From Kaistia soli DSM 19436 (GTDB lineage Bacteria; Pseudomonadota; Alphaproteobacteria; Rhizobiales; Kaistiaceae), in assembly GCF_900129325.1 (NCBI RefSeq), contig NZ_FQUP01000001.1, positions 186,001-250,000 on the forward strand: a stretch of DNA of 64,000 nucleotides. The letters are read 5' to 3'. Positions within the stretch are counted from its first letter, which is position 1; each line of letters starts with the position of its first letter. Below the pieces are notes generated by a model that saw nothing but the letters and a program-made list of their open reading frames with translations, was not told the origin of the DNA and did not search any database. Position numbers and translations under genes: made by a program. Below, piece by piece: positions 39,572-53,249 of this stretch.

Positions 39572-39973
39572 TCAGGTGCCGCCGATCGACCAGAGGACGC
39601 CAAAGGGGTCCTTGAGCTGGCCGTAGCGATCACCCCAGAACATTTTCTGCAGCGGGGTCACGATTTCGAGGCCCGCCGCCTCGGCGCGATTCCACCAGAC
39701 ATCCGGATCCGGGACCTGCAGATGCATGGTGAATGCCTGTGGCCTCACCGCCGGATAACCATGCTCAGGGTAAAAGTCACACAGCATCACCGATCCGCCA
39801 TGGATGGTCAGATGAATGTGCATGGTGCGGCCTTGGTCATCGACCGGATGGCGGGCGATTTCCTCGGCGCCGAATGCCCGTGCGTAGAGCTCGGCCGCCT
39901 TCACCGCGCCATCGACGCTGAGATAGGGAACTACGCCGACGATCGTGTTGGATGAAGCCGTCGTCTCGGTCAT
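39572..39973 (-). CDS. VOC-family protein (PhnB/glyoxalase-like)
   Basis: A 133-residue protein with the vicinal-oxygen-chelate fold: VVPYLSVDGAVKAAELYARAFGAEEI, then MHIHLTIHGGSVMLCDF, and KDPFGVLWSI at the end. It belongs to the PhnB-like group often found beside DGPF proteins and ECF sigma factors. Enzyme activity is unknown. I start at ATG (MTETTASS) with AGGAG seven bases upstream. It lies 91 bp after the ECF sigma gene and has its own candidate ECF promoter. Confidence 0.85.
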   Translation of the reverse strand: MTETTASSNTIVGVVPYLSVDGAVKAAELYARAFGAEEIARHPVDDQGRTMHIHLTIHGGSVMLCDFYPEHGYPAVRPQAFTMHLQVPDPDVWWNRAEAAGLEIVTPLQKMFWGDRYGQLKDPFGVLWSIGGT

Positions 39974-40025
39974 CTTCGTCTCCTTCTTGTCGAGCCGCAC
40001 CACCTTCGGGCGGGCTTCGCTGCAA

Positions 40026-40053
40026 GGACGGTTGATAAAAGCCGAAGCCGACA
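40026..40053 (-). promoter_or_regulatory. Candidate ECF promoter of the VOC gene
   Basis: On the minus strand TGTCGG is followed after 17 bp by CGTCC. It lies in the gap between the sigma gene and the VOC gene, with the -10 element about 53 bp before the start codon. The same motif pair precedes the DGPF-sigma operon, the SRPBCC gene and the DGPF gene at 52860. Confidence 0.6.
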
Positions 40054-40063
40054 AGCGAACCAA

Positions 40064-41329
40064 TCAGCCGCTGGACGCCGGCATGTTTATCGGCGTCGCA
40101 TCCAGACGGTCGAGATGCATACGGATATGCGCCGCTTCCGCTGCCGTTCGCGCCAGCGCGATTGCCCGGTCATACGCATCGCGGGCTTCGTCAACGCGTC
40201 CAAGCTGGCTCAGCAATGCGCCCCGCAAGCCAAAATAATGAAAATAGCCGCCGAGCGGTTCCGCCAAAGGCGCGATCATCGTCAGCGCCGCCTCCGGCCC
40301 CGCGACCTTGGAAACTGCGACGGCCCGGTTCAGCGTCACCACCGGTGAGGGCTGGATATGTTCGAGCGTTGCATAGAGAAGGTCGATCTGCGGCCAGTCG
40401 GTGTCCTCCGGCCGCGCGGCTCTCGCATGCAGGGCCGCGATCGCCGCCTGGATGAGATACGGCCCGGGACGGCGATGGCGCATGGCCTTGTCGATGAGCG
40501 CGAGGCCCTCCGCGATCATCGCGCCGTTCCAGAGGCCGCGGTCCTGATCGTCGAGCAGGACCACCGCGCCATCAGCATCGAAGCGCGCCGCGAGGCGCGC
40601 ATGCTGGAGCAGCATCATCGCCGTGAGGCCCATGATCTCAGGCTCGGCCGGAAAGAGGCGCAACAACAGGCGCGCCAGCCGGATCGCCTCGTCGCAGAGC
40701 CGGGCGCGAGCAAGGTCTCCGGATGCGGCGGAATACCCCTCGTTGAAGACGAGATAGATCATGGTGGCGACCGCCGCGAGACGCTCGGCCCGCTCGACGG
40801 GCCCCGGCGTCTCGAATGGCACGCCGGCCTTTGCCACGCGGCTCTTGGCGCGGGTGATGCGCTGCTCCATCGCGCTTTCGCTTACGAGAAAGGCGCGCGC
40901 GATCTGCGGAACCGTAAGGCCGGAGACGATGCGCAGCGCAAGCGCGATCTGCTGCGTTGTCGCGATGTCAGGGTGGCAACAGATGAAGAGCAGCCGCAGG
41001 ATGTCGTCGCGATAATGGGCGTCATCGAGCCGATCGGCCAGCGAACTCTCCGCATCGCCAAGGTCTGAGAGCACCGATTCCTCTGGAAGCTCGGCCTCGC
41101 GACTGCGCCTGCGAACGACATCAATGGCGGCATTGCGGCCGACGAAAATCAGCCAGGCGCAAGGATCGCGCGGCGGCCCGTTCTGGGGCCAGAGATTGAG
41201 CGCCTTCAGACACGCTTCCTGGAACGCCTCCTCGGCGATGTCGAGATCGCGGAAATAGCGAAGCAGCGCGCTGATCGCCTTCGGCCGCGCCGCGGAAACC
41301 GCCGTCTCGATCCAGCCGATATCGGTCAT
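40064..41329 (-). CDS. ECF RNA polymerase sigma factor with C-terminal extension (ECF42-like)
   Basis: The 421-residue protein has sigma region 2 (residues about 10-80, DIAEEAFQEACLKAL and AWLIFVGRNAAIDVVRRR) and region 4 (about 110-170, with the helix-turn-helix LTVPQIARAFLVSESAMEQRITRAKSRV). A C-terminal part of some 230 residues follows that contains TPR-like helices and the FNEGYSAA motif. This long C-terminus and a DGPF/YciI gene in the same operon are the marks of the ECF42 group, which has no anti-sigma factor; none is seen here. It overlaps the upstream DGPF gene by 4 bp. Confidence 0.93.
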   Translation of the reverse strand: MTDIGWIETAVSAARPKAISALLRYFRDLDIAEEAFQEACLKALNLWPQNGPPRDPCAWLIFVGRNAAIDVVRRRSREAELPEESVLSDLGDAESSLADRLDDAHYRDDILRLLFICCHPDIATTQQIALALRIVSGLTVPQIARAFLVSESAMEQRITRAKSRVAKAGVPFETPGPVERAERLAAVATMIYLVFNEGYSAASGDLARARLCDEAIRLARLLLRLFPAEPEIMGLTAMMLLQHARLAARFDADGAVVLLDDQDRGLWNGAMIAEGLALIDKAMRHRRPGPYLIQAAIAALHARAARPEDTDWPQIDLLYATLEHIQPSPVVTLNRAVAVSKVAGPEAALTMIAPLAEPLGGYFHYFGLRGALLSQLGRVDEARDAYDRAIALARTAAEAAHIRMHLDRLDATPINMPASSG

Positions 41330-41697
41330 GGTCGGAGTGCCCCGGGAAAGAAGGCGCCGACGGGCCGCACTTCATAGGCACCACCGGGGTTGGCGGCTGC
41401 GAGTTCGCGTGTCGTGTCCAGGACATCTTCAAGCGAGCCGCCCTCCACAAGATAGAAGCCGAGCAGTTGCTCCTTGGTCTCGGCATAGGGACCATCGAGC
41501 ACCAATGGCGGATCCTGATCCTTGCGCAGCGTCGTCGCCGCTGTCGTCGGCAGAAGCCGAGCCACAGGCCCGAGCCTGCCCTCGCGGGCCAGCTTGTCCT
41601 GGACGACCGCAAGCTTCGCCATGACGGCCGCGTCTTCCTCCTTGGTCCAGGAACCGACGACGTCTTCGGAATGATAGCAAAGGATGGCGTAGAGCAT
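41326..41697 (-). CDS. YciI/DGPF-domain protein, operon partner of the ECF sigma factor
   Basis: A 123-residue ferredoxin-like-fold protein of the YCII-related family with the signature DGPYAETKEQLLGFYLVE. Genes of this kind accompany ECF42 sigma factors in many soil bacteria, but their role, enzymatic or signalling, is not established. I start at the ATG giving MLYAILCYHSED; an in-frame start five codons upstream is possible. The stop overlaps the sigma start by 4 bp. Confidence 0.9.
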   Translation of the reverse strand: MLYAILCYHSEDVVGSWTKEEDAAVMAKLAVVQDKLAREGRLGPVARLLPTTAATTLRKDQDPPLVLDGPYAETKEQLLGFYLVEGGSLEDVLDTTRELAAANPGGAYEVRPVGAFFPGALRP

Positions 41698-41722
41698 GGG
41701 ATTCCCTTCCACATCGCAGCTA

Positions 41723-41751
41723 GGACGATTGGCACCCTACGCCTGCCGACA
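41723..41751 (-). promoter_or_regulatory. Candidate ECF promoter of the DGPF-sigma operon
   Basis: TGTCGG-N18-CGTCC on the minus strand, with the -10 element 25 bp before the DGPF start codon. If used by the encoded sigma factor this means autoregulation. The -35 element lies inside an inverted repeat, CGCCTG-N4-CAGGCG. Confidence 0.62.
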
Positions 41752-41815
41752 GGCGATGCGAGAATGGGTGACGATTGCCGATGCGAGCCCAACTTATCTC
41801 TGCGATCAAGGGGAT

Positions 41816-41843
41816 TGTCGGATCCTGGGGACCGCAAGCGTCC
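41816..41843 (+). promoter_or_regulatory. Candidate ECF promoter of the SRPBCC gene
   Basis: TGTCGG-N17-CGTCC on the plus strand, ending 29 bp before the start codon of the SRPBCC gene. It mirrors the promoter of the DGPF-sigma operon, 65 bp away on the other strand. Confidence 0.65.
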
Positions 41844-41872
41844 TTGTCACGGAGCCACGAGGAGAGACATTG

Positions 41873-42343
41873 ATGAGCATCACCGAACCTGGCGATCGCG
41901 AGTTGATCATCACGCGCCTGATCGATGCGCCGCGCGCCAGCCTTTATCGCTGCTGGACAGAGCCTGAGCTGATCAAGAAGTGGTTTGCGCCCGCGCCGTG
42001 GACGACGCCCTCGGCCGAACTCGACCTTCGCATCGGTGGCACGAGCCGCATCGTGATGCGCAGTCCGGCTGGCGAGGATTTCGCCAATCCGGGCGTCTTC
42101 CTCGAGGTCGTGCCGAATGAGAAGCTCGTATTTACCGACGCCTTCACCGAGGCCTGGCTGCCATCGCAGAAGGCTTTCATGGTCGGAACGGTCACCTTTG
42201 CCGACGAGGACGGCAAGACGCGCTACACCGCCCGCGTCCAGCACTGGTCTGCGGAAGATCGGGCGGCACACGAGCAAATGGGATTCCATCAGGGATGGAA
42301 CCAATGCACGGACCAATTGGCAGCGCTGGCCCGAACGCTCTGA
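41873..42343 (+). CDS. SRPBCC/AHSA1-domain protein
   Basis: A 156-residue helix-grip protein of the START-like AHSA1 group: LIITRLIDAPRASLYRCWTEPELIKKWFAP, then GGTSRIVMRSPAG, ending HQGWNQCTDQLAALA. Members bind small hydrophobic ligands; many stand next to ECF sigma factors or ArsR regulators. GGAG lies about 10 bases before the ATG. It is divergent from the DGPF-sigma operon and shares its promoter motif. Confidence 0.88.
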   Translation: MSITEPGDRELIITRLIDAPRASLYRCWTEPELIKKWFAPAPWTTPSAELDLRIGGTSRIVMRSPAGEDFANPGVFLEVVPNEKLVFTDAFTEAWLPSQKAFMVGTVTFADEDGKTRYTARVQHWSAEDRAAHEQMGFHQGWNQCTDQLAALARTL

Positions 42344-42346
42344 ACA

Positions 42347-42373
42347 GGCGGCCGGCCCATCGGGCCGGCCGCC
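42347..42373. terminator. Hairpin between convergent SRPBCC gene and secreted-protein gene
   Basis: A perfect 12-bp stem GGCGGCCGGCCC / GGGCCGGCCGCC with a three-base loop. No T tract follows on either strand. Confidence 0.6.
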
Positions 42374-42382
42374 CTGATCGTC

Positions 42383-42787
42383 TCAGGGACAGACGTCCCA
42401 GAACCCGGTCGTCTTCTGCGGGTTCGTATAATACCAGCAATAGCCCGGCTTCGGCGCTGCGCCCGCCACCGAGACGGCGGCGGCGCCCGCGATGAAGCCG
42501 ATCGCCGCGCCGGCCGCGACGGCGCCACCTGGCGGCCAATAGCGGCGCGGGTTGACCACGACCACGCCCGGCGGCCGATAGACCGGATGGCGATAGACAG
42601 GCGCGGGCCGGTAAGCCGGCCGCCGGGTTGCACCGGCCGCGCAGCCATAACGTCCGCAGCCTGCTGCGGCGCAGCCGCGTGGTCCGCAGGCAGCGCGCGC
42701 CTCGGCCGGCGGCGCCGAAAGCATCGGCAGCGCCACCGTTGCCAGGACGCCGAACGTCAACACCAGAATTCTGAACAGCTTCTGCAT
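42383..42787 (-). CDS. Small secreted protein with Gly/Ala hydrophobic segment
   Basis: A 134-residue protein with a signal peptide (MQKLFRILVLTFGVLATVALPMLSAPPAEA). A Cys/Gly-rich stretch (CGPRGCAAAGCGRYGC), a Pro/Tyr/Arg-rich stretch, the hydrophobic GAVAAGAAIGFIAGAAAVSVAG, and a short conserved-looking end YCWYYTNPQKTTGFWDVCP follow. The last part resembles the C-terminus of several small rhizobial secreted proteins of unknown role. GGGGGAG precedes the ATG by six bases. Confidence 0.75.
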   Translation of the reverse strand: MQKLFRILVLTFGVLATVALPMLSAPPAEARAACGPRGCAAAGCGRYGCAAGATRRPAYRPAPVYRHPVYRPPGVVVVNPRRYWPPGGAVAAGAAIGFIAGAAAVSVAGAAPKPGYCWYYTNPQKTTGFWDVCP

Positions 42788-42916
42788 CAAAAACTCCCCC
42801 GCAAAGCGATTCCTACCCTAGCACTGTTCCAAACGCCGGGGGAGCAAGCTGATCCGGGGTGCTCAAGCTCGCCGCGATCGCCTACACTTCGCTGCGACAA
42901 CCAGCTGGAGTCCGCG

Positions 42917-43378
42917 TTGAGCCACGACCCGAAAGCGACCAAGGCCCTCCCCGCCCATGTCGAGTCTTCACTCGACGCCACGCCAGACCACACCACGATC
43001 CCGGTGATCCGCACGATCGCCATGCCGCGCGACACCAATCCGGCAGGCGATATCTTCGGCGGCTGGCTGATGTCGCAGATGGATCTTGGCGCCAGCACGA
43101 TCGCGACACGGCGGGCGCGCGGCCGGACGGTTACCGCGGCGGTCGAAGGCATGTCGTTCCTGAGCCCCGTGCAGGTCGGCGACGAGGTGACGATCTATGG
43201 GCGCATCGTTTCGACGGGCCGCAGTTCGATGCGGGTTTTCGTCGAGGCCTGGCGTCGCAACCGCGAAAGCGACGACATCACCAAAGTGACGCACGCCACC
43301 TTCACATTCGTCGCGATCGACGCCGCCCGGAAGCCGCGTCCGTTGCCGGAGCCCGATGGCGAGGTCAAAGACAGATGA
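42917..43378 (+). CDS. Acyl-CoA thioesterase (hotdog fold, YciA-like)
   Basis: A 153-residue hotdog-domain enzyme that hydrolyses acyl-CoA. The family signature NPAGDIFGGWLMSQMDLGAST with its catalytic Asp is present, followed by TAAVEGMSFLSPVQVGDEV and the C-terminal THATFTFVAID. The best-supported start is TTG at 42917, with GGAG about six bases upstream; the ATG of MPRDTNPAG would cut into the first strand. Confidence 0.87.
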   Translation: MSHDPKATKALPAHVESSLDATPDHTTIPVIRTIAMPRDTNPAGDIFGGWLMSQMDLGASTIATRRARGRTVTAAVEGMSFLSPVQVGDEVTIYGRIVSTGRSSMRVFVEAWRRNRESDDITKVTHATFTFVAIDAARKPRPLPEPDGEVKDR

Positions 43379-43429
43379 AGGGCCGGATCAGCGCCTCCGC
43401 GTCAGAGACGGCTCCGACGCACCGCTTTT

Positions 43430-44062
43430 TCAGGGAACCGTGGCCTGGCTCGCCGCGAAGCCGATGATGATGTCGTTGTTCAGAAGATAGTTAAGGCTCT
43501 GGAAGGTCGTTGCCCCGCCCTGAACCGCCGCGCTCTGGTTGAGATAGGCCACCATATTGTTGCGCGCAGCAACCGTTCCGAAGGTCGTTTCAAGGTCGGA
43601 AATGCTCCCGCCGAGGCCGGGTGCCTGCATCGTCAAGCCAGCAAGCGACGAGGGTGCGGCATCGCAGCCGGCCTTAGGCGCGGCATAGTTGGCGCCGACG
43701 AGCGTGACCTTGTGCTCTGAACCGCCGGCCTGGCCGTCGGAGACGAACCAGATCAACTGCTGCTGGTCGCCCGACCCCGCTGCATAGCAGAGCCAGTCAG
43801 CCGATACGCTGCCATCCGCCGCGTGCTGCAACGTGCCGCCAAAGGCATCCTGCAGATCCCCCAGGAGCGTTTCCCCGAGCACGATCGTCGCGGGACCCGC
43901 AGTGATCGTCGGGGCAGGCATGTTCGGAACTTCGTGCTGCGTGCCCTCGGCCGCATCGCCTGAGAGCAACGCAGATGGCAGGCCGGTCAATCGCGCGCCA
44001 TCGGCAAGGGCCGGACCAGCAAGAAGCATGAGCAACAGCGTGGCGGTGGTCAAAGGTCTCAT
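43430..44062 (-). CDS. Secreted protein of unknown function
   Basis: A 210-residue protein with a clear signal peptide (MRPLTTATLLLMLLAGPALA). The mature part has two cysteines (WLCYAAG and KAGCDAAP) that could form a disulfide, and no repeats or motif I recognise. It stands alone, 88 bp from the DUF1045 gene. Probably periplasmic. Confidence 0.72.
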   Translation of the reverse strand: MRPLTTATLLLMLLAGPALADGARLTGLPSALLSGDAAEGTQHEVPNMPAPTITAGPATIVLGETLLGDLQDAFGGTLQHAADGSVSADWLCYAAGSGDQQQLIWFVSDGQAGGSEHKVTLVGANYAAPKAGCDAAPSSLAGLTMQAPGLGGSISDLETTFGTVAARNNMVAYLNQSAAVQGGATTFQSLNYLLNNDIIIGFAASQATVP

Positions 44063-44150
44063 GATGGAAATCCCGAGGCCGCAATACGGCGGCGCAAGCC
44101 GAGCCTAAGCCAAGGCTGGGAAACAGCCAAGCTCAAGAAAAGGCTTAGCT

Positions 44151-44849
44151 TCAGATTGGCCGATCGCCGCCCAGCTGCGCAACATGACGGATGCCGAAGG
44201 GCGCGCCCCGCTCCGGCTCGACGAAGACCGCGAGGCGATCGATGACGAAGGGCTTGCCTTCAAACGCTGCAAAGTGGCTGCGCAACGCCGTATCGACAGC
44301 CTCCATGTCCTCTCGCGGAACGCGCCCGGTCAGCGACATATGGAATCGAAAGGCGTCGAAGACATAGGGATAGCCCCAGCGCAGCAGATTGGCTTCCTCG
44401 TCCAGCGTCAGGCCCGATTTGCGCCGCCGCTCGATATCCGCGTCCGAGAGCGGCGCGCGAAATGCGTCGAAATCGCTGACCACGCGGCCGGCCCAGGCGT
44501 CAAGCGCCGCAACCGGCTCATTCGGGACGAGCGCAAAGAAGCGACCGAGCCGGCGGACGACCAGTTCAGGGATCGTGATGCGAGCCGATTGAGCCGCGAA
44601 GCGATCGACGGCCGCAAGAAGTCCCGCTTCATCGGCGTCGGAGGCCAAGGAAAACGGCGCCTTCAGCGTTCCGTGGAAGCCATAGCGGGCCGGGTCGGCG
44701 AGATAGGCTTCCAGAGTGCCGGCCGCGAGCCCTTCGACCTCCGGCAGCGGACCTTCCAGTCCTCCGAATGCATCTCGTCCGAGCCACGCGACAGCAGCGA
44801 GGCAGAGAGGGTCATCGGCGGCGGGCGTGGCATAGAGAGCGTAGCGCAA
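44151..44849 (-). CDS. DUF1045 protein (2H phosphoesterase-like)
   Basis: A 232-residue protein with the two HxT/S motifs of the 2H phosphoesterase superfamily, GFHGTLKAPF at about residue 58 and FRFHMSLTGR at about 170. Members occur with phosphonate (phn) genes and are annotated 'putative phosphonate metabolism protein'. No phn gene lies nearby here, so that role is only a family association. Confidence 0.86.
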   Translation of the reverse strand: MRYALYATPAADDPLCLAAVAWLGRDAFGGLEGPLPEVEGLAAGTLEAYLADPARYGFHGTLKAPFSLASDADEAGLLAAVDRFAAQSARITIPELVVRRLGRFFALVPNEPVAALDAWAGRVVSDFDAFRAPLSDADIERRRKSGLTLDEEANLLRWGYPYVFDAFRFHMSLTGRVPREDMEAVDTALRSHFAAFEGKPFVIDRLAVFVEPERGAPFGIRHVAQLGGDRPI

Positions 44850-45049
44850 GGAGGGCCTCGGACATCATCAGGGCTGTGGCGGCAAAGCCGACGAATCATC
44901 TCATTATCGCCGAAGTGCAGACATTCGCATGACGCGCAGTAGCTTTTCCTGTTCGGAACGAACCCCGAGGCCCGCGCCGCGTTATGGAAGCAGTCATGCT
45001 GATCGGGCATGATGGCTCGATGCACGCCTGTTGAAGGACGATACCAGGG

Positions 45050-45364
45050 ATGTCCGCCATGATCCGCTCAGCTTCGATGCTCATCGCCGCCGCTTTTGTC
45101 TCGGCCCTTGCGCTCACGACGCTCTCATCTGGTCACGCCCACGCCTTCAGCTATTACGACGGCCACACAGCGCCCGTCCCAGACTGGGAGGTGTTCGGCT
45201 TCGACCTCACCAGCGTGCCCGGCGACGTCGCATCCCTGATGGCGTTCAAGGCTTCCCTCGATCCAAGACTGCAGCTCGCAATCAACAACCGCTGCAAGCA
45301 GGATATCGTCGCGATGCCCTGGCGCTACTCCCCGAAAGTGAGAATGTTCTGCTGGGGGCACTGA
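45050..45364 (+). CDS. Small secreted protein A of a tandem paralogous pair
   Basis: A 104-residue protein with a signal peptide ending HAHA. The mature part of about 70 residues has WEVFGFDLTS, a single internal cysteine in NNRCKQDI, then WRYSPKVRMFCWGH. The set VFGFD...C...RYSxxVxxFC recurs in the next gene at 45568. The two cysteines probably form a disulfide. No known domain recognised. An ATG three codons later (MIRSASML) is an alternative start. Confidence 0.72.
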   Translation: MSAMIRSASMLIAAAFVSALALTTLSSGHAHAFSYYDGHTAPVPDWEVFGFDLTSVPGDVASLMAFKASLDPRLQLAINNRCKQDIVAMPWRYSPKVRMFCWGH

Positions 45365-45537
45365 GCGCCCGCCGCCCCTTCATGTCCAGTGTCGCCTGGC
45401 GGATGGTGCCCGGCGCTTTCACCGGAACAAATCATCACCCTGATCGTTTAGATCTCGTGACGGATAGTTGACCGTCGATCTATCGAGGTTGCGGCGACGT
45501 CTTCGCCGAAATCAAAATTTGCAACACGTCGCTTTAC

Positions 45538-45549
45538 TGCAACGTTGCA
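45538..45549. promoter_or_regulatory. 12-bp palindrome before secreted protein B
   Basis: TGCAACGTTGCA is perfectly symmetrical, overlaps a CATAAT sequence that could be a -10 box, and lies 18 bp before the start codon. Upstream is a further TTGCAA. A regulator site is possible; nothing more can be said. Confidence 0.35.
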
Positions 45550-45567
45550 TAATCAGGGAGATCGCCA

Positions 45568-45927
45568 ATGATCGTTTCCAAGTATAGCAAGGCTCTCACG
45601 GCCGGTATTGTTTTCGCGACGCTGTCGATGACCCCGGCATTTGCGCAGGACGCGAACAATCCGGCCGTTCAGACGCCGCCCGCGGTTTCGAACCCGACGC
45701 CGGCCCAGTCCGACAACGGCCAGTCGACCGAGTCCTCGAGCGAGGCTGACAAGCCAGGCGGCCCGATCGCAGACACGGATGTCTTCGGCTTTGACATCAG
45801 CATGGGTACAGCGAATCTGACAGCCGAACAGATGACGGCAGCGAAGAATACGTGTCGCGACAACGTCACGATCGACCCGGTGCGCTATTCCTCGGCGGTC
45901 AAGAGCTTCTGTGACCAGCTGAAATAA
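45568..45927 (+). CDS. Small secreted protein B of a tandem paralogous pair
   Basis: A 119-residue protein with a signal peptide (cleavage after AFA) and a low-complexity Pro/Ser/Gln/Glu linker to about residue 65. The C-terminal part DVFGFDISMG...CRDNVTIDPVRYSSAVKSFCDQ has the same motif order as the preceding gene. GGGAG precedes the ATG. It probably arose by duplication and gained the linker. Function unknown. Confidence 0.75.
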   Translation: MIVSKYSKALTAGIVFATLSMTPAFAQDANNPAVQTPPAVSNPTPAQSDNGQSTESSSEADKPGGPIADTDVFGFDISMGTANLTAEQMTAAKNTCRDNVTIDPVRYSSAVKSFCDQLK

Positions 45928-45929
45928 GA

Positions 45930-46706
45930 CTAACCGCCGTTAAGACCCGGCCGCGGCTCGCTTCCGGCGAGTTCGCGGCCGATCCATGTCAAGAGCTCGC
46001 GTCGAGCCGATGGTTCGGCTAAGGCACGCGGCTGGTAGATATGCCGATCGAGAAAGTGGCCAGTGAGGCGGAACGCCTCGTCAATCGCGCGCCGATCGTC
46101 ATTCGCGCCGTGTTGGCCGAATAGCAGCCTGGGCAGCGGCAGCAACCGATCCTCATAGCCAGCAGCAGCCGGCCCACTCACCGCGCGGCCGGTTCGCGGC
46201 GAGACGAAGACGAGACCCTCCGTCGTGCCCGTCACGGCGCAGCGCGAGAGATCGAGCCCGAAGCCGCTTTCATTCAAGAACGCGAGTTCAAAGCGCGCGA
46301 CGAAGCCGGCGATAGCCAAGGCGCTCGGACCGGGGCTCTCGGCGAAGCTGTCGAGCGCTGAATCCACCGCGCCATGCAGTTCCGGATGACTTTCCCGCTC
46401 CGCAAGCAGCCCCAGATGGCCGGCGAGAACCTGCAGCGCAAAAAGCGACAGCGGACGTTCGATCAGCTTGGCGGCACGCATGGTCAGCGGCTCGATTGTG
46501 AACAAGCCCAACTGCTCGTCCAGCCGGGCGCGCCAAGTAGCTTCGACGCGGTTGCCGGGCTGCAGCATCGGCGCCAGGCGGCGCGAGCGCGCACCGCGCA
46601 CGACACCGAGATGGCGGCCGCGCTTTGCCGTCATCAATTCCAGCACCGCACTCGAATCACCGAGCCGCCGCATGCCGAGCACGATGGCCTGATCGGTCCA
46701 TTGCAT
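45930..46706 (-). CDS. recO: DNA repair protein RecO
   Basis: Recombination mediator that loads RecA with RecF and RecR. The 258 residues start with the OB-fold sequence MQWTDQAIVLGMRRLGDSSAVLELMT, continue with HLGVVRGARSRR, and have the helical C-terminal part with LDLSRCAVTGTTEGLVFVSPRTGRAVS. Only the first of the C-terminal cysteines is kept, so the zinc site of some family members is absent. Its stop lies 3 bp from the convergent secreted protein B. Confidence 0.94.
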   Translation of the reverse strand: MQWTDQAIVLGMRRLGDSSAVLELMTAKRGRHLGVVRGARSRRLAPMLQPGNRVEATWRARLDEQLGLFTIEPLTMRAAKLIERPLSLFALQVLAGHLGLLAERESHPELHGAVDSALDSFAESPGPSALAIAGFVARFELAFLNESGFGLDLSRCAVTGTTEGLVFVSPRTGRAVSGPAAAGYEDRLLPLPRLLFGQHGANDDRRAIDEAFRLTGHFLDRHIYQPRALAEPSARRELLTWIGRELAGSEPRPGLNGG

Positions 46707-47135
46707 TCAGAAACCCGCCTCGACGCGCAATGACCGCGCCGTAACACCATCAACGGAGGGTCTCATCATAATCCTGACCTCGCGACTAGCCGGTCAAAAA
46801 TGTCGCCGGACATCGATGTCGCTTAAATCCGGGTGGGGACCTGCGGCCGCCAAACTTCGGCGTGAGGACTGGTGACGCGCCTAGCTATCCGCCCGCCGTC
46901 TGATGTTGGCGTCACGTGACACCACGGCGTGTGATCCTGGCTCTAATCCCAAATAGGGCCGAAGTTTGATCCGGCAACATTTGCATCCGTTCTGACACCA
47001 CCATGCGCAGATAAGCATGGCGCTGATGACCTCACAGCCAAGGTCGAGGGCCTCGTCGCTGCGCGCATCGGATTGGCCGGCTGCCAGATGAACTTGCTTC
47101 TCCCAAGATGGCTGCTCGGCAGAGCACAAACGAAA
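46707..47135. other. Gene-free stretch between recO and porin
   Basis: About 430 bp upstream of recO and downstream of the porin terminator. It must hold the recO promoter. I saw no convincing ORF, palindrome or repeat here. Confidence 0.5.
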
Positions 47136-47163
47136 AGGCCCGGCGGAATGATCCGCCGGGCCT
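47136..47163 (-). terminator. Rho-independent terminator of the porin gene
   Basis: A 12-bp stem AGGCCCGGCGGA / TCCGCCGGGCCT with loop of four bases; on the minus strand it is followed by TTTTCG. Its core CCCGGCGGA/TCCGCCGGG equals that of the clpX terminator at 25023-25056. Confidence 0.88.
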
Positions 47164-47185
47164 CTTTATCTCCGAGGAGAAGAGC

Positions 47186-48466
47186 TTACCAGGAGCGCTT
47201 CATCCAGAGGTTGACGGTCCAAGCGTCGCCGTCGTCATCGTTGTTGACGCCCGCAACGCGGCCGTCGGTGATGTCAACATGCGAGTACTGGCCATCGAGC
47301 ATCAGATCGAGACCGGTGACCGGGGTCCAGCCCGTCGAGAACACACCGCGATACGCATCGACGGTGAAGTTGTCGAAGTAGCCATCGCCATCATACGAAG
47401 CATAACCGCCCGAAACAGCCGACCAGACGGTCGGGGTCCAGACATGCTTGTACGAAGCGAGTGCCGACCAGCTGGAACCAGGAGCCGCCGACGCGATGAA
47501 CGAGCCATCGTAGGTCGAGGTCAGGTTAGCAACCGACGTACCGCCGGCGATGCCGGTGTACGAGTTGGCGTTGTCGCCATACGAACCCGTGACGAAGAAC
47601 TTGTCGCCGGGCGAGAAGCTGTCGAGAGCGAACTCGACGCTGCCGCCGATGGCCCAGCCAGTCTTCGCATTGATGTCATACGGGTCGGCAATCGTGCCCG
47701 AGCCGCCATTGACGTCAACCGCGTTGTTGACATAGGCCGCAGCAATCTTCGTCGAGAAGATGCCCGAAGCGTAGGTCACAGCACCGACGATGTCGGGGAT
47801 GTTGTTCTCGCCGCCCTGATAGTAGCTCGAACCGCTGAGCACCGGATCGCCGGTGTTGCCAGCAGCGCCACGGTCACGCTGGTCTTCGACCGAGATCGCA
47901 AGACCGAAGCCGTTGACGGCATAGGTCAGCTGGATGTGATCGGTGGTGGTGTCCGAACCGAACGCGCCGGTGTCGGTGTAGCCACGGCCGAAGTCGTACA
48001 GCGAGGTGAAGCGACCAGCCTTGACCGGACCAAGCGACAGCCAGGCGCTGTCGACATAGGCGGAGTTGGTGGCGGCGTTGACCGTCTGCGTCGCCGACTG
48101 CGTGAACGAGCCGGTGTTGCCGGACTGAGCACGGAAGTCGAGGAAGCCGGTGAGGTTACCGAATTCGGTGACCGACGAAGCCGTCAGCTGGACCGAGGCT
48201 TCCGTGTAGAAGTTCGACCACTGGCTGTTCGGGTAGATCGAGTTGTACGTGCCGAAATCGGTATCACCGAAAGCGGTACCGAACTTCACGTAGCCACCGA
48301 CCTTGATGCAGGTGTCGGTGCCGGGAGAATAGAAGAAGCCAGCGCCAAAAGCGTCGCAGACCTTCACGTAGTCGACCGGCTCGGCGACCGTGAGATCCGC
48401 CGCCTGAGCGCCACCAGCCACGATCATCGCAGCGGCAGAGCCGAGGAGAAGGGTCTTGAAGTTCAT
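47186..48466 (-). CDS. Outer-membrane porin (alphaproteobacterial Omp2/RopA type)
   Basis: A 426-residue beta-barrel porin that lets small solutes cross the outer membrane. Signal peptide to AQAA (residue 23), then the hallmark start of this family, VDYVKVCDAFGAGFFYSPGTDTCIKVGGYVKFG with its two cysteines. Alternating amphipathic strands follow, and the protein ends in MKRSW, the aromatic residue recognised by the BAM machine. Codon use is strongly uniform, as in highly expressed genes. It is preceded by a long leader and has its own terminator. Confidence 0.95.
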   Translation of the reverse strand: MNFKTLLLGSAAAMIVAGGAQAADLTVAEPVDYVKVCDAFGAGFFYSPGTDTCIKVGGYVKFGTAFGDTDFGTYNSIYPNSQWSNFYTEASVQLTASSVTEFGNLTGFLDFRAQSGNTGSFTQSATQTVNAATNSAYVDSAWLSLGPVKAGRFTSLYDFGRGYTDTGAFGSDTTTDHIQLTYAVNGFGLAISVEDQRDRGAAGNTGDPVLSGSSYYQGGENNIPDIVGAVTYASGIFSTKIAAAYVNNAVDVNGGSGTIADPYDINAKTGWAIGGSVEFALDSFSPGDKFFVTGSYGDNANSYTGIAGGTSVANLTSTYDGSFIASAAPGSSWSALASYKHVWTPTVWSAVSGGYASYDGDGYFDNFTVDAYRGVFSTGWTPVTGLDLMLDGQYSHVDITDGRVAGVNNDDDGDAWTVNLWMKRSW

Positions 48467-48866
48467 ATCCTGACCTCCAAAAGGTTAAACCAGGAGACTG
48501 TTTCTTTCTTCTCGTCGCCCCCGAGACAATCTTTCGATTATCCCAGTCAGTCGGCTCGCTCGAAGTCCGTCAAATCCCCGTTCAGCTGCATCTGCCCGAG
48601 TTGTCCCCCACCCCTGGGTGACAGGCAAAGCAACCGGAACCGCTTTCGATTCCGTAAAGTGATCATAGCGAAAGGCGTCAGGGGCGCTATGACGGAAATG
48701 CAACACTGCAAGGGATCGTCATGCTTTGACATGTAAGGTTTCGGTAACACCTGTTAACACGCTGGCAACAATCAGCTTTTGAACCGTGCGCCAGGGCGTC
48801 GCCTTGTGCGAAAGACGTCATCGACGCATGGTTGCCAGCGAAAACCAACGCAAGGATTCCAAGGAC
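48467..48866. promoter_or_regulatory. Divergent control region porin / mrp
   Basis: A 400-bp gap. On the mrp side there is a TTGACA (48726-48731) that would do as -35 box and a direct repeat TAACAC-N4-TAACAC (48745-48760). The -10 box is unclear. Some of the gap is porin leader; no credible ORF or strong hairpin was seen. Confidence 0.35.
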
Positions 48867-50000
48867 ATGGCCTCTATCGACCGCGAAGCGATTCTGGCGC
48901 GACTCGCCGCCGTTCCCGGGCCCGACGGAAACGGCGACCTCGTTTCGCTTGGGCTCATCTCCGACATCGTCATCCATGGCGGCAAGGTCATGTTCTCGAT
49001 CACCGTGGATGCCGCTCGCGCCGACGCGCTCGAGCCGCTCCGCGAGCAGGCCGCGGCAGCCGTGAAGGCGCTGCCGGGTGTCGAGAGCACGCTTGTTATC
49101 CTAACAGCCGAGCGCAAAGGCGGCGCGGGCGCCCCCCCTCCGCCCCGCCCTGCCCGGCCCGCCGCATCCGCCCCCCCGACTTCGGCCAGCGGCAAACCGG
49201 GCATTCCGGGCGTTGGAGCAATCATCGCCGTCGCCTCGGGCAAGGGCGGCGTCGGCAAATCCACCACAGCTGTCAACATCGCGCTCGGCCTTGCGGCCAA
49301 CGGGCTGAAAGTCGGCCTGCTCGACGCCGATATCTATGGTCCGTCCGTCCCGCGGCTGCTGGGCCTCTCTGGCAAGCCAGAGACCCAGGACGGGCGCACT
49401 CTGAAGCCGATGGAGGCTTTCGGCATCAAGGCCATGTCGATGGGATTCCTCGTCGAGGAAGAGACGCCCATGATCTGGCGTGGCCCGATGGTGATGTCGG
49501 CGCTGACGCAGATGCTGCGCGAGGTGGCTTGGGCACCGCTCGACGTTCTGGTTGTGGACATGCCGCCGGGGACCGGTGATGCGCAACTCACCATGGCCCA
49601 GCAGGTGCCGCTCGCCGGCGCGGTCATCGTCTCGACGCCGCAGGACCTCGCCCTCATCGATGCGCGCAAGGGCCTCGCGATGTTCCGCAAGGTCGATGTG
49701 CCGGTGCTCGGCATCGTCGAGAACATGAGCTATTTCCTCTGCCCGCATTGCGGCGGACGCTCGGACATCTTCAGCCATGGCGGGGCGCGGCACGAGGCGG
49801 AGCGGCTTGGGGTGCCGTTCCTCGGCGAGGTGCCGCTCGACCTCGTCATCCGCGAGACGTCGGACGCCGGCAGGCCGATCGTGGCCAGCGCGCCAGATGG
49901 CCCGCATGCGGCTGTCTACCGGGACATTGCAACGCGGATCAGCATGGCGATCGCTGGCGGCGCCGGGGCAAAGCCGGCGCCGCGCATCATCATCGAATAG
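48867..50000 (+). CDS. mrp: Iron-sulfur cluster carrier protein (Mrp/ApbC/NBP35 family)
   Basis: P-loop ATPase that delivers Fe-S clusters. The 377 residues have an N-terminal DUF59/MIP18-type domain (about 1-85), a proline/alanine linker (about 90-115), and the ATPase domain with the deviant Walker A GKGGVGKSTT and the cluster-binding CPHCGG motif. I start at MASIDREAIL; an upstream in-frame ATG (MVASENQRK) is less likely. With complex I encoded in the same region, a role in Fe-S supply is plausible. Confidence 0.94.
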   Translation: MASIDREAILARLAAVPGPDGNGDLVSLGLISDIVIHGGKVMFSITVDAARADALEPLREQAAAAVKALPGVESTLVILTAERKGGAGAPPPPRPARPAASAPPTSASGKPGIPGVGAIIAVASGKGGVGKSTTAVNIALGLAANGLKVGLLDADIYGPSVPRLLGLSGKPETQDGRTLKPMEAFGIKAMSMGFLVEEETPMIWRGPMVMSALTQMLREVAWAPLDVLVVDMPPGTGDAQLTMAQQVPLAGAVIVSTPQDLALIDARKGLAMFRKVDVPVLGIVENMSYFLCPHCGGRSDIFSHGGARHEAERLGVPFLGEVPLDLVIRETSDAGRPIVASAPDGPHAAVYRDIATRISMAIAGGAGAKPAPRIIIE

Positions 50001-50003
50001 CGA

Positions 50004-50894
50004 TTAGCCCTTCGGCGCGAGCGCCGCGCGGTTCTCGAGCAGGAAGTCGCGGACGCTCTGCGGCTCCTGTCCCGTCCAATCCTTCACGACGGTCGTGGTG
50101 ATCGCGTGAAAGCCCTCCGCCGCCGCGACGTCGAAGGCCACCAGACCTTCGACGAGGCCGGCGGGCAGCCCTGCAGCCGTCAATCCCTGACGAAGCCCCT
50201 CGGCCGGGACCGCGACATGCTTCACCGGCCTGCCAGAAATCTCGCTGGCGAGTGCTGCGACCTCATCCTGCGTCAACGGTGCGGGCCCGGTGACATCGAG
50301 GGCGGATTTTCCGGTTGCCTTGGCCAGCGCTGCGGCCGCCGTGCGCGCGCAATCTTCCCGCGTGACGTAGGAGCGGCCTCCCGTTCCGGTTGCCGTATAG
50401 AGCGTGCCGGTCTCGATCGCGTGCGGCAGCGAATAGACGAGCAAGTCCGTATAGAGATGGTCGCGCAGGAATGTGAAGTCGACGCCGCTGGCGGCGATCG
50501 CCTGCTCGGTCCAGTAGTGATCGCCAATGAGGCTCGGCTCGGGCGTCGGATAAGGCGCTGGCGCCGACAGATAGACGATGTGATTCACCCCGGCGGCCAC
50601 CGCCGCCTGTATCGCTGCGCGGTGCTGCGCCAAGCGCCTGCCATCCGTCCCGAGGGCATCGGTCGAAATCAGCAGCATCCGGTCGGCGCCCACAAAGGCG
50701 TTGGCCAGCGTCCCCGGCTCGTCAAAATCGGCGTGGCGGATTTCGGCGCCCTTGGCCGCGAGGTCGGCGAGCTTTGCCGGATCGCGCGTCGTGCCGATGA
50801 CCTTGCCGGCCCCGGCAGCCAGCAGCGCCTCGATAACCTGGCGGCCGAGATGCCCGCTGGCACCCGTGACGAGAAGTGTGGAGTCGCTGGTCAT
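50004..50894 (-). CDS. NmrA-like NAD(P)-binding reductase (quinone oxidoreductase-like)
   Basis: An atypical SDR of 296 residues with Rossmann motif TGASGHLGRQV, a second segment HIVYLSAPAPYPTPEPS, and the C-terminal domain of the NmrA/QorB group. It probably reduces quinones or carbonyl compounds with NADPH. I start at ATG (MTSDSTLLV), with AGGA six bases upstream. It is divergent from an HxlR regulator, a common pairing for electrophile stress. Confidence 0.88.
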   Translation of the reverse strand: MTSDSTLLVTGASGHLGRQVIEALLAAGAGKVIGTTRDPAKLADLAAKGAEIRHADFDEPGTLANAFVGADRMLLISTDALGTDGRRLAQHRAAIQAAVAAGVNHIVYLSAPAPYPTPEPSLIGDHYWTEQAIAASGVDFTFLRDHLYTDLLVYSLPHAIETGTLYTATGTGGRSYVTREDCARTAAAALAKATGKSALDVTGPAPLTQDEVAALASEISGRPVKHVAVPAEGLRQGLTAAGLPAGLVEGLVAFDVAAAEGFHAITTTVVKDWTGQEPQSVRDFLLENRAALAPKG

Positions 50895-51058
50895 GTCCAT
50901 TCCTTTGTCGACAGCAGACGAACGCGGCACCGCATGGATTGGCGCGCTCGGTTCCATCTAGTAACTAAGCGCTTGACATGCATCCGTGAAAAACGCATCT
51001 GTCTGTCCCTTGGGCACACCGGCGGAACTGCGTCTGCGTGGCAGCAGAGGAATGGGTG
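50895..51058. promoter_or_regulatory. Divergent promoter region with candidate HxlR operator
   Basis: The 164-bp gap holds the small palindrome TAGT-A-ACTA (50959-50967) directly followed by GCGCTTGACATGC, whose TTGACA could be the -35 box of the HxlR gene. HxlR-type operators often contain GTAACT-like halves, so this is a reasonable operator candidate. Confidence 0.45.
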
Positions 51059-51508
51059 ATGATCGATACAGCGACGGCCCGCATCGAAACCGAGTGGGAT
51101 GAGGCTCACTCCCACACCCCGGCGCTCGGCGAACTGATCGGCGGTTTTGGAAACGCCGCTCGATCGGCCGAGGAATGTCCGGTTCGCGATGTGCTCGACC
51201 GACTTGGCGATGCCTGGAGTTTTCTGGTGGTCCTGCGCCTCGCCGACGGTGCGCTGCGGTTCAATGAACTGAAGCGGCAGGTCGGGGGCGTTTCGCAGCG
51301 GATGCTGACGGTGACTCTGCGCAGCCTCGAGCGCGATGGCCTCGTCGGCCGCACCGTTTTTCCAACCACGCCGCCGCGCGTGGAATACCGACTGACGGCG
51401 CTCGGCAATTCGCTGGTCGAACCCATGACCGCCCTCACCCGCTGGGCGGTCACCAATCATGACAGCGTTCGCGCGGCGCGCGCCCGCTATGATACGCCGC
51501 AGCCCTGA
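51059..51508 (+). CDS. HxlR-family transcriptional regulator
   Basis: A winged-helix protein of 149 residues. The HxlR signature is clear: [34 protein letters not shown], then [37 protein letters not shown]. The single cysteine at the start of the domain (EECPV) is the residue that senses electrophiles or hypochlorite in relatives such as HypR/YodB. I start at ATG (MIDTATAR) with GAGG eight bases upstream. It probably controls the divergent NmrA-like gene. Confidence 0.9.
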
Positions 51509-51544
51509 GCACGCGGCGGAGGCGATCAGTTTACTAGGGCTGCA

Positions 51545-51934
51545 TCACTTTCCGCACTTGATGTTGTAGGTGCCGGCGACCGCGACGCCCTTGGCGCCCA
51601 TGCCGCTGCGCTTCAGGCGCATTGTGACGATCGACCCCTGAACGAGTTCGGCGGCGCCAGAATTCAGGACCACCTCACCCTTGGTGCCGACGGTGCTCTT
51701 GTACTCGATGATCAGCATCGCATCGGCCGGAACGCCGCCGACGCCCACGCGCCAGACGTGATTTTCCGGCGATTCGGCGATCACCGCCTGACCCTCGCTC
51801 ATGCCCTGCGGCACGGATAGCGTCCATTTGGTCGGCCGGCAGGCCGGGTCCTTGGCAGCGGCCTCGGCAGTGCCCGCGCCGGCGAGACAGGCGATCGAGA
51901 CGGCGGCGGCAAGAAGGGGCGCTAGTCTGGTCAT
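51545..51934 (-). CDS. Small secreted protein of unknown function
   Basis: A 129-residue protein with signal peptide (MTRLAPLLAAAVSIACLAGAGTAEA). The mature part is predicted to be beta-rich and has two cysteines, near its start (DPACRP) and at its end (NIKCGK), fit for a disulfide. No known domain recognised; it stands alone between HxlR and Nudix genes. Confidence 0.75.
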   Translation of the reverse strand: MTRLAPLLAAAVSIACLAGAGTAEAAAKDPACRPTKWTLSVPQGMSEGQAVIAESPENHVWRVGVGGVPADAMLIIEYKSTVGTKGEVVLNSGAAELVQGSIVTMRLKRSGMGAKGVAVAGTYNIKCGK

Positions 51935-52054
51935 GACGGGTGTCCGTTGCTGGCGAGCCGTCTCGAGGCGACGGCATCAAAATACGTGGGCGGAGAATAC
52001 ATCAATGGATACGGGCGCCAAGGTCTCGCCCGGACGTGCCGCGGAAGCTGTTTA

Positions 52055-52645
52055 TCAGCGGGCGAGAAGGCCCTTCAGCGCCGCATAGTGAAGCAACATG
52101 ATGGTCTTGGCATCGCAGATGCGGCCATCGAAACTCATGGCCATCGCCTCCTCGAAAGGAAGCTCCAGCACCTCGATATCCTCGCCTTCGGAGACATGGC
52201 CGCCGCCGGCGCCACGGCGATCGCCCGGGCGATAGCGGGCAACGAAGAGATGCAGTTTCTCGACGACGCTGCCTGGCGACATGAAGGCCGCGATCGCAAG
52301 TTCAGGCTCGTCGATGGCAACGCCCATCTCCTCCTCGGCCTCCTTCTTGATGCAGGTGACCGGATCGTCGGCATCGAGAAGGCCGGCACAAACTTCGATC
52401 AACGGTTCATGATGGCCGCGCTTCCAAGCGGGAAAGCGGAACTGGCGGATCAGGAGGACCGTGCCACGATCGGGGTCGTAAGCGAGAACGGCCGCGCCAT
52501 CACCGCGATCATAGGTTTCGCGCGTCTGGCGCTGCCACGATCCGTCGGAGCGCTGATAATCGAAGACGTTCCGGTCGAGCTTGCCCCAGTTGCGGGAAAG
52601 TTCAACTGTCTCGACGAGACGGATGCGGTCGTTCCAGTCGGTCAT
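52055..52645 (-). CDS. Nudix hydrolase (NudK/GDP-mannose pyrophosphatase-like)
   Basis: Cleaves nucleoside diphosphates linked to another group, here probably a nucleotide sugar. The 196 residues contain the Nudix box GLLDADDPVTCIKKEAEEEMGV, in which the first acidic position is Asp instead of Glu while the metal-binding EAEEE is intact. FMSPGSVVEKLHLFVA following the box is typical of the NudK group. I start at MTDWNDRIRLVE; the frame upstream is not conserved-looking. Confidence 0.86.
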   Translation of the reverse strand: MTDWNDRIRLVETVELSRNWGKLDRNVFDYQRSDGSWQRQTRETYDRGDGAAVLAYDPDRGTVLLIRQFRFPAWKRGHHEPLIEVCAGLLDADDPVTCIKKEAEEEMGVAIDEPELAIAAFMSPGSVVEKLHLFVARYRPGDRRGAGGGHVSEGEDIEVLELPFEEAMAMSFDGRICDAKTIMLLHYAALKGLLAR

Positions 52646-52781
52646 GGGAATCCCCTTGTCGCGCTTTGGCATGCATAGCCGATCGGGCGCGCGAGGGAAC
52701 CGGTCTTCAGGCGACTTTGCGCTGCGACACAGAGCGCAGGCAGAGGGCAGAGCGGCGCCTCTTGAAAAAGTTCGACGCAAA

Positions 52782-52810
52782 TGTCGTCCCGGCTGCCCCG
52801 CCGTTCGTCA
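52782..52810 (+). promoter_or_regulatory. Candidate ECF promoter of the second DGPF gene
   Basis: TGTCGT-N18-CGTCA on the plus strand, 49 bp before the DGPF start codon. It differs from the three copies around the ECF sigma operon only in the last base of each element. Confidence 0.55.
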
Positions 52811-52859
52811 TCACACTGAGCGCAACCGGCGCGACTGGCGATATCAAGGGAGAACGATG

Positions 52860-53249
52860 ATGCGTGTGATGGTTCTGGTGAAGGCAACGACCGATTCGGA
52901 AGCCGGACTGCTGCCGACGACCGAATTGTTCGACGCAATGGGGCGGTTCAACGATGAGCTCGCCGCCGCGGGCATCCTGCTGGCCGCCGATGGCCTCAAG
53001 CCCTCCTCCAACGGCAAGCGCGTCGCCTTTGACGGCGCGAGCCGGATGGTCATCGACGGACCCTTCGCGGAAACGAAGGAGGTTGTGGCTGGCTTCTGGC
53101 TTTGGCAGGTCAAGGACATGGACGAGGCCGTGGCATGGGTGAAGCGCTGCCCGAACCCGATGCCCGGCCCGAGCGAGATTGAAATCCGGCCGCTTTTTGA
53201 AATGTCCGATTTCGCCGATGTGGTGACGCCTGATCGCGGCGCTGCGTGA
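52860..53249 (+). CDS. YciI/DGPF-domain protein (second copy)
   Basis: A 129-residue protein of the YCII-related family with the signature IDGPFAETKEVVAGFWLW and the N-terminus MRVMVLVKATTDSEAG. It belongs to a different subgroup from the copy at 41326. Two adjacent ATGs exist; the second has AGGGAG at the better distance of seven bases. There is no sigma gene beside it, but an ECF-like promoter motif lies upstream. Confidence 0.88.
   Translation: MRVMVLVKATTDSEAGLLPTTELFDAMGRFNDELAAAGILLAADGLKPSSNGKRVAFDGASRMVIDGPFAETKEVVAGFWLWQVKDMDEAVAWVKRCPNPMPGPSEIEIRPLFEMSDFADVVTPDRGAA

Follow-up and report, generated by a model that had tools for sequence, protein, structure and literature searches.

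A candidate scattered ECF42 regulon in Kaistia soli and two ECF42 sigma factor types with different promoter letters in one genus

The window analysed here is a stretch of 64,000 nucleotides from Kaistia soli DSM 19436 (NZ_FQUP01000001.1, positions 186,001-250,000; coordinates are those of the window unless a contig is named), which contains a gene for a sigma factor of the ECF42 type together with its putative target promoters. The sigma gene (40064-41329, minus strand) codes for 421 amino acids. Sigma70_r2, Sigma70_r4_2 and DUF6596 score above the Pfam cut-off and TPR_1 below it, and the match to TIGR02937 (sigma70-ECF) reaches 44.0 bits at a cut-off of 42.9, as expected of an extracytoplasmic function (ECF) sigma factor with sigma2 and sigma4 regions. 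The C-terminal tail, with DUF6596 at residues 183-283 (119.6 bits) and the sub-cut-off TPR_1 at 368-393, corresponds to the TPR-rich extension of about 200 residues; its TPR-like structure matches were designed TPR proteins only, and a search of solved structures with the sigma factor gave no sigma factor complex among the matches. A DGPF/YCII gene (41326-41697, minus; Pfam YCII), a neighbour looked for with ECF42 sigma factors, is the first gene of the operon and overlaps the start of the sigma gene. With the DUF6596 and TPR tail and the DGPF partner, the ECF42 assignment made in a preliminary description of the window is borne out.

Further genes of interest are a VOC gene of the glyoxalase family (39572-39973, minus; Pfam Glyoxalase), an SRPBCC/AHSA1 gene (41873-42343, plus; Pfam AHSA1) and a second DGPF/YCII gene, here DGPF2 (52857-53249, plus; Pfam YCII). 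Genes were called with a purpose-written simple dicodon model, not a published caller; for the VOC gene it gave a GTG start at 40003, and 39973 was preferred by eye. The neighbours of the sigma gene examined for an anti-sigma factor encode YCII, Glyoxalase and AHSA1 proteins and a further protein with no Pfam assignment, so that an anti-sigma factor of an unfamiliar kind is possible.

Candidate promoters were found by pattern search upstream of the VOC gene (TGTCGG-N17-CGTCC, 40026-40053, minus), the DGPF-sigma operon (TGTCGG-N18-CGTCC, 41723-41751, minus) and the SRPBCC gene (TGTCGG-N17-CGTCC, 41816-41843, plus), N17 and N18 being the spacer in bp between the -35 and -10 elements. The site of DGPF2 (TGTCGT-N18-CGTCA, 52782-52810, plus) is likely, from ortholog comparison, an altered promoter of a different sigma type, type B. 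The preliminary description had placed all four pairs correctly, and its statement that the -10 element points to the gene at 25-55 bp from the start agrees with the measured 52, 25, 29 and 46 bp (starts 39973, 41697, 41873 and 52857). Compared with the ECF42 target TGTCGN-N17-CG(T/A)C, the operon promoter matches in its letters and has a spacer of 18 rather than 17 bp.

The loose pattern of the preliminary description, TGTCGK-N17/18-CGTCM, has six matches in the window, not four; the two extra ones (4601-4629, minus; 33461-33489, plus) fall within called genes. Per 64 kb, shuffles predict 0.30 matches and the genome's own rate, the fairer expectation, about 1.1. Within the whole genome (G000; 5.23 Mb) there are 91 matches, 70 of them within genes, 20 intergenic and 1 partial. 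Judged by the refuting condition set in the preliminary description, the loose pattern fails. The narrower TGTCGG-N17-CGTCC passes, as 11 of its 14 matches are promoter-positioned, that is, outside genes and at most 80 bp ahead of a start. The remaining N17 matches are so positioned in one case out of ten and all N18 matches in 3/67 (DGPF-sigma, DGPF2 and a TolC-like gene); apart from TGTCGG/CGTCC, there are 48 N18 matches with two in promoter position (DGPF2 and the TolC-like gene). Because so few such matches are promoter-positioned, the N18 and T/A options of the pattern are mostly noise, and of the motif definition the G/C letters and the 17-bp spacer carry the signal. The site of the DGPF-sigma operon, though N18, occupies the place that is conserved in relatives.

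Conservation was assessed in the named loci L105-L184, the best 80 of 578 confirmed from a scan of a genome collection. A site was defined as TGTCGN, a spacer of 15-19 bp and CGTC, 0-150 bp before a gene, and genes off contig ends were excluded. Such sites precede 65 of 79 DGPF genes, always with N17 and in 64 cases at a distance of 21-30 bp; they also precede 35/43 AHSA1 homologs, 27/41 VOC homologs and 3/5 DGPF2-like genes. Directly in front of the sigma gene they occur in 3 of 80 loci, none with N17, and among other genes in 25 of 1235, 12 at N17. The motif that the preliminary description took to be shared is therefore conserved in relatives at DGPF-sigma, VOC and SRPBCC genes. In the closest relative, Mesorhizobium sp. 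BR1-1-16 (sibling locus L105), the operon promoter is N17 where the window has N18. Among 105 operons with a sigma factor of the window's type, called type A, 88 have TGTCGG with N17 only, one with N17 and N18, two with N18 only (the window and L322) and 14 with none; L105/L267 and L106/L272 appear to be two genomes each present twice.

An A/T block, defined as at least six of eight A/T at positions -17 to -10 upstream of the -35 element, resembles an upstream element and accompanies 119 of the 139 promoter-positioned sites of the named loci. Elsewhere it was seen at 2/7 in-gene sites of these loci, 1/20 sites in ECF42-negative genomes and 0/62 in-gene N18 sites of the own genome. Sets with more diverse targets have it at 7/22 sites (G090, G096, G065 and G066), 6/15 sites (type-B genomes) and 1/11 own N17 promoters. 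Upstream of the -35 element of DGPF2 (52765-52772, plus) 7/8 positions are A/T (0.88).

The motif also tracks the sigma factor across the order. A DUF6596 sigma factor of any type is encoded in 56 of 120 genomes, about half. With a codon-phase-matched N20 spacer as control, the 56 genomes contain 355 matches of TGTCGG-N17-CGTCC and 212 of the control (binomial p 1e-9), and the 64 genomes without the sigma factor 201 and 185 (p 0.22); the groups differ (Mann-Whitney p 0.007). Per genome, N17 exceeds N20 in 31/56 and falls below it in 15/56 of the positive genomes. Allowing 120 bp, 22/52 N17 sites are promoter-positioned in the ECF42-positive G090, G096, G065 and G066 (15 of 18 G096 matches examined; 1/7 in G066), and 0/20 in the ECF42-negative G025, G098, G091 and G106 (20 of 21 matches examined). 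These sequence comparisons establish the motif, its position and conservation, and an N17 excess confined to the genome group with a DUF6596 sigma factor.

The 11 genes behind the promoter-positioned N17 sites are the VOC and AHSA1 genes of the window and, elsewhere, genes for DUF899, MFS, SDR, PhnB-type VOC (3-dmu-9_3-mt), SMP-30, a third YCII protein (DGPF3), DUF1428, DoxX and M20 peptidase (Pfam). Of the ECF42-type regulon of four genes that had been proposed, the scattered arrangement stands, and the predicted membership is larger. In G090, of the same genus, 8 of 15 N17 sites are promoter-positioned; the genes behind them (by eye) are SDR, SMP-30, PhnB-VOC, DUF899, VOC, DGPF3, dihydrofolate-reductase-like and another MFS, and the AHSA1 gene, missed by the caller, likewise has a site. 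Because G090 shares their sites, DUF899, SDR, SMP-30, PhnB-VOC, VOC, AHSA1 and DGPF3 are the firmest members; for MFS, DUF1428 and DoxX, the own genome and family resemblance elsewhere suggest membership. The M20 peptidase site (G000:C4:336910) was dropped from the likely regulon for want of conservation: G126 has a changed version, and G090, G120, G121, G124 and G127 lack it. Of the five YCII genes of the genome, three are preceded by a loose-pattern match. Another is part of a second ECF42 operon, which has a motif of its own, and no match stands before the remaining one (C5:217622). An SBP_bac_5 gene has a site with CGTCA (L104), and the TolC-like gene one with N18 and T. About 2.2 kb downstream of the intact DUF899 gene lies a partial duplicate, a fragment (G000:C4:548645-548815) that matches the C-terminal 57 residues of the protein at 96 percent identity.

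The second ECF42 operon, consisting of a DGPF gene and a DUF6596 sigma gene of type C, has TGTCGA-N17-CGACA at G000:C4:333202-333229 (L094 from 2703), 61 bp before DGPF. The letters are the same in G090, G124 and G126, and the operon is likely a separate regulon.

Within the genus, of which ten genomes were compared, a type-A sigma factor is found in G000, G090, G124, G126 and G127 and a type-B sigma factor in G120, G121 and G123. G122 has neither, G125 (720 contigs) has no DUF6596 match, type B was not found in the own genome, and A and B were found together in none of the ten. Outside the genus they co-occur in G080, G096 and G103. A search of the three type-B genomes for TGTCGA-N17-CGTCG gave 30 sites, 15 of them promoter-positioned, of which 14 precede DGPF, DoxX, PhnB-VOC, VOC, MFS or dihydrofolate-reductase-like genes (families by eye) and one another gene. 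Judged by these letters, one genus contains two sigma types with different -35 and -10 letters before the same gene families. That both signals stand before the same families, in species with either type A or type B, suggests a handover of the regulon.

Two genes could be followed in both groups. The best DUF899 matches of a whole-genome search have TGTCGG-N17-CGTCC in G000, G090, G124 and, at 102 bp, G127, CGTCGG-N17-CGTCC in G126 (by eye) and TGTCGA-N17-CGTTG in G120, G121 and G125. DGPF2 has TGTCGT-N18-CGTCA in G000 and its sibling G126, TGTCGG-N17-CGTCA in G124 and G090 and TGTCCG-N17-CGTCG in G127 (by eye); its orthologs have TGTCGA-N17-CGTCG in the type-B genomes G121 and G123 and TGTCGA-N17-CGTTG in G122 (by eye), and in G120, which has no closer relative than one at 51 percent, the letters are TGTCGA-N17-CGTCG. 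DGPF2 is followed by the type-B sigma gene in G123, and DGPF genes similar to it precede type-B sigma genes in L271, L304 and L296. The DGPF2 site thus probably descends from the regulon of another ECF42 sigma type; what had been listed as the fourth regulon site is present as a pair, but likely derives from elsewhere. DGPF3 has TGTCGG-N17-CGTCC in the four type-A genomes that possess the gene. A shared locus from which a type-B sigma gene beside DGPF2 was lost was considered and rejected: the NUDIX and LysR neighbours match in the window, G124, G126 and G090, not in G123/G121, so that no scar is shown. A syntenic block was found in seven genomes of the genus. The fragmented G125 assembly (L379) has no DUF6596 sigma match, yet TGTCGA-N17-CGTTG stands before DUF899; the sigma gene may lie in a gap, or the promoter may have outlived it.

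The sigma4.2 recognition helix offers a possible basis for the different letters. The codons of residues 150-162, including E155, Q156 and T159, lie at 40844-40882 (minus; alignment of 88 sigma factors). The same 88 of 148 sigma factors (one in four of the named loci, without L105 and L106) were used for a quick IQ-TREE tree, in which type A is one clade (45 rows; SH-like approximate likelihood ratio test, SH-aLRT, 100). In this set, at a limit of 110 bp, base 6 of the -35 element is G at 41/41 called type-A operon promoters and A at 10/10 others called; the N18 match of L289, TGTCGC, lies 117 bp from the gene, beyond the limit. A wider scan of all 148 found an N17 match at 87/105 type-A operons, 87 matches being TGTCGG and one TGTCGA, and at 28/43 others, mostly TGTCGA, also TGTCGT, TGTCCA, TGTCCG and TGTCTG. 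E155 is present in 45/45 type-A and 0/43 other sigma factors, T159 in 45/45 and 3/43; 27 type-A-specific positions, 155 included, are listed in the first 200 residues. Residue 156 is concordant with base 5 in all 69 called operons (Q with G in 63, K or R with C or T in 6) and is the best predictor of this base among 170 positions (28 non-A rows). It changed independently three times on the tree, always concordantly, though three pairs are too few for significance in a sign test.

Twenty plasmid loci, chosen by organism from 60 listed of 135 records and with distance to the start not used as a filter, were added. Twelve have an N17 match; Q156 goes with G in 8/8 and K156 with C in 2/2 (both Paraburkholderia), so that residue 156 is concordant in 10/10 loci that combine an N17 site with Q or K, and A156 goes once with G and once with A. 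In one of the plasmid loci, L432, no start lies within 140 bp of the N17 match. The eight loci without an N17 match include one K156 and two R156, and one R156 locus has TGTCCA with N18. E155 goes with G at base 6 in 2/2, and the single R155 (L437) with C. T159 was rejected as sole determinant of base 6: it occurs with A in L425 (N17) and L440 (N18) and with C in L437. This covariation suggests that E155 and Q156 read -35 bases 6 and 5, the match of 155 with base 6 being less certain than that of 156 with base 5. L437, on a Labrenzia plasmid, is of interest in itself, as an ECF42-type sigma factor with R155 has TGTCGC upstream, then SRPBCC and DoxX genes, possibly a natural third specificity.

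We consider it very likely that the type-A sigma factor reads the TGTCGG-N17/18-CGTCC sites of its regulon, and that the DGPF2 site descends from another ECF42 type. The sigma factor would bind the sites of the VOC gene, the SRPBCC gene and about eight genes elsewhere in the genome, and also that of the DGPF-sigma operon, so that it would probably switch on its own gene. This autoregulation, and one substrate shared by the members, are predictions of the preliminary description. The TPR tail of the sigma factor may sense the signal, and the gene set may have been passed between sigma types. Several points weigh against this interpretation. The N18 spacer of the operon promoter is rare among type-A operons (3/105), and the A/T block is weak at the three type-A promoters of the window (0.38-0.50). 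The non-conserved M20 site means that probably at least one of the 11 sites is due to chance. The type-A operon L183 has TGTCGA, not TGTCGG, some sigma factors that lack E155 have G at base 6 (L274, L276, L279 and L291) or T (L287 and L312), and E155 arose only once on the tree, so that a link with base 6 cannot be told apart from that of other type-A-specific positions. In Sinorhizobium meliloti the YCII-sigma operon did not respond to overexpression of the sigma factor (PMC6180224). That all these sites are chance matches in GC-rich coding DNA is nevertheless extremely improbable: most loose-pattern matches do lie within genes, but the TGTCGG-N17-CGTCC sites are mainly promoter-positioned, the same gene families have sites in relatives and the N17 excess tracks the DUF6596 sigma factor. 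Chance origin was therefore rejected for these sites as a set and accepted for most N18 and T/A matches. The type-C sigma factor (G000:C4:333.7-334.9 kb) is a paralog in the same genome and might read the four sites instead, but its own operon has a different -10 element, as in G090, G124 and G126, and we regard this as quite unlikely. A more serious contender, with a somewhat less than even chance, is the view of the preliminary description that the window's sigma factor reads all four sites today, DGPF2 included. In the sibling G126 the letters TGTCGT and CGTCA and the N18 spacing of the DGPF2 site are unchanged although the spacer sequence differs, the site has the A/T block, and the type-A genomes G124 and G090 have TGTCGG-N17-CGTCA before the gene. 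Its T at base 6, however, is unseen at the called type-A operon promoters of both the tree set and the full set, its 18-bp spacer belongs to a class of which only 2/48 own matches are promoter-positioned, and DGPF genes similar to DGPF2 accompany type-B sigma factors.

How the two types came to share gene families is a more tentative matter. The two ECF42 types may have replaced each other in the genus, the -35 and -10 letters of the promoters following the resident sigma factor, with the switch in residues 155 and 156 and DGPF2 as a left-over of the displaced sigma factor's operon; we give this scenario close to an even chance, but not quite. Under such a replacement E155/Q156 would specify TGTCGG, a small residue at 155 with Q156 TGTCGA, and K or R at 156 TGTCC. 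Type-A and type-B species could also have built similar regulons independently from the same families, a possibility that we rate a little lower. It is favoured by the observations that whole-genome protein searches followed no genes but DUF899 and DGPF2 through both types, that type-B genomes offer DGPF3 only distant counterparts (44 percent at most) and that the DoxX neighbours differ between G000 and G120/G121. Against it, the best DUF899 matches, 63-65 percent identical, have TGTCGA-N17-CGTTG in the type-B genomes G120/G121 and TGTCGG-N17-CGTCC in 4/5 type-A genomes, and none of the ten genomes was found to carry both sigma types. The pattern fits a handover with DGPF2 as left-over. The number of switched genes is inferred, and so is the direction B to A, solely because B-clade sigma factors are present in G014 and G118, two of the three other genomes of the same family; the third, G058, has neither type.

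A conserved target list would narrow the search for the ECF42 signal, in a family present in about half of the order's sampled genomes. With two sigma types in one genus, one could ask what becomes of a scattered regulon when its regulator changes, and single substitutions in laboratory reporters could test the proposed residue-to-base rules. Apart from this system, the window contains at 32808-35015 an open reading frame of 735 amino acids, in which a series of PTTGGT-like repeats separates two parts and which looks like a surface or secreted protein (by eye).

This kind of regulon is already known from RpoE10, the ECF42 factor of S. meliloti. There, promoters with TGTCGG-N17-CGTCC or CGTCA are reported, with starts mapped by RNA-seq or by rapid amplification of cDNA ends (5'-RACE), before the YCII-sigma operon, a gene for a hydrophobic-ligand domain and glyoxalase-like genes; six genes rose upon overexpression, four of them in two operons (PMC6180224). 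Both systems have YCII upstream of the sigma gene, the motif before SRPBCC-like and VOC genes, and targets at several loci. K. soli differs by its 11 promoter-positioned TGTCGG-N17-CGTCC sites, by the further families DUF899, DUF1428, DoxX, SMP-30, SDR and MFS, and by the 18-bp spacer at the operon promoter. Within the literature searched, what is new is the longer list of targets, the occurrence of two types in a single genus and the rules linking residues to bases; the search brought up no earlier description that we recognised of a regulon handover or of such residue rules for ECF42, and a prior description is possible. From a helix alignment, we take residues 155 and 156 to be the counterparts of R170 and S171 of Corynebacterium glutamicum SigD. 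In a modelling and mutagenesis study of SigD/SigH, the model has R170 touching the template base across from the fifth position of the -35 element, and gives S171 a contact with the second position (PMC11588781). The R170 contact, through the assumed alignment, agrees with R155 going with C. Here, from covariation only, G accompanies E155 and C the single R155, and residue 156 varies with base 5 rather than with the second position. The target motif of the ECF42 sigma factors of Streptomyces venezuelae and of ECF-10 of Pseudomonas putida is reportedly TGTCGA with CGA/TC, like those of types B and C here. According to a review, these factors have a TPR-rich C-terminal extension and a YCII protein nearby, and both their regulation by protein interaction and a sensing role of the TPR tail are predicted (PMC8999054). 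The sigma factor of K. soli resembles them in having a TPR-rich tail and a YCII-domain neighbour.

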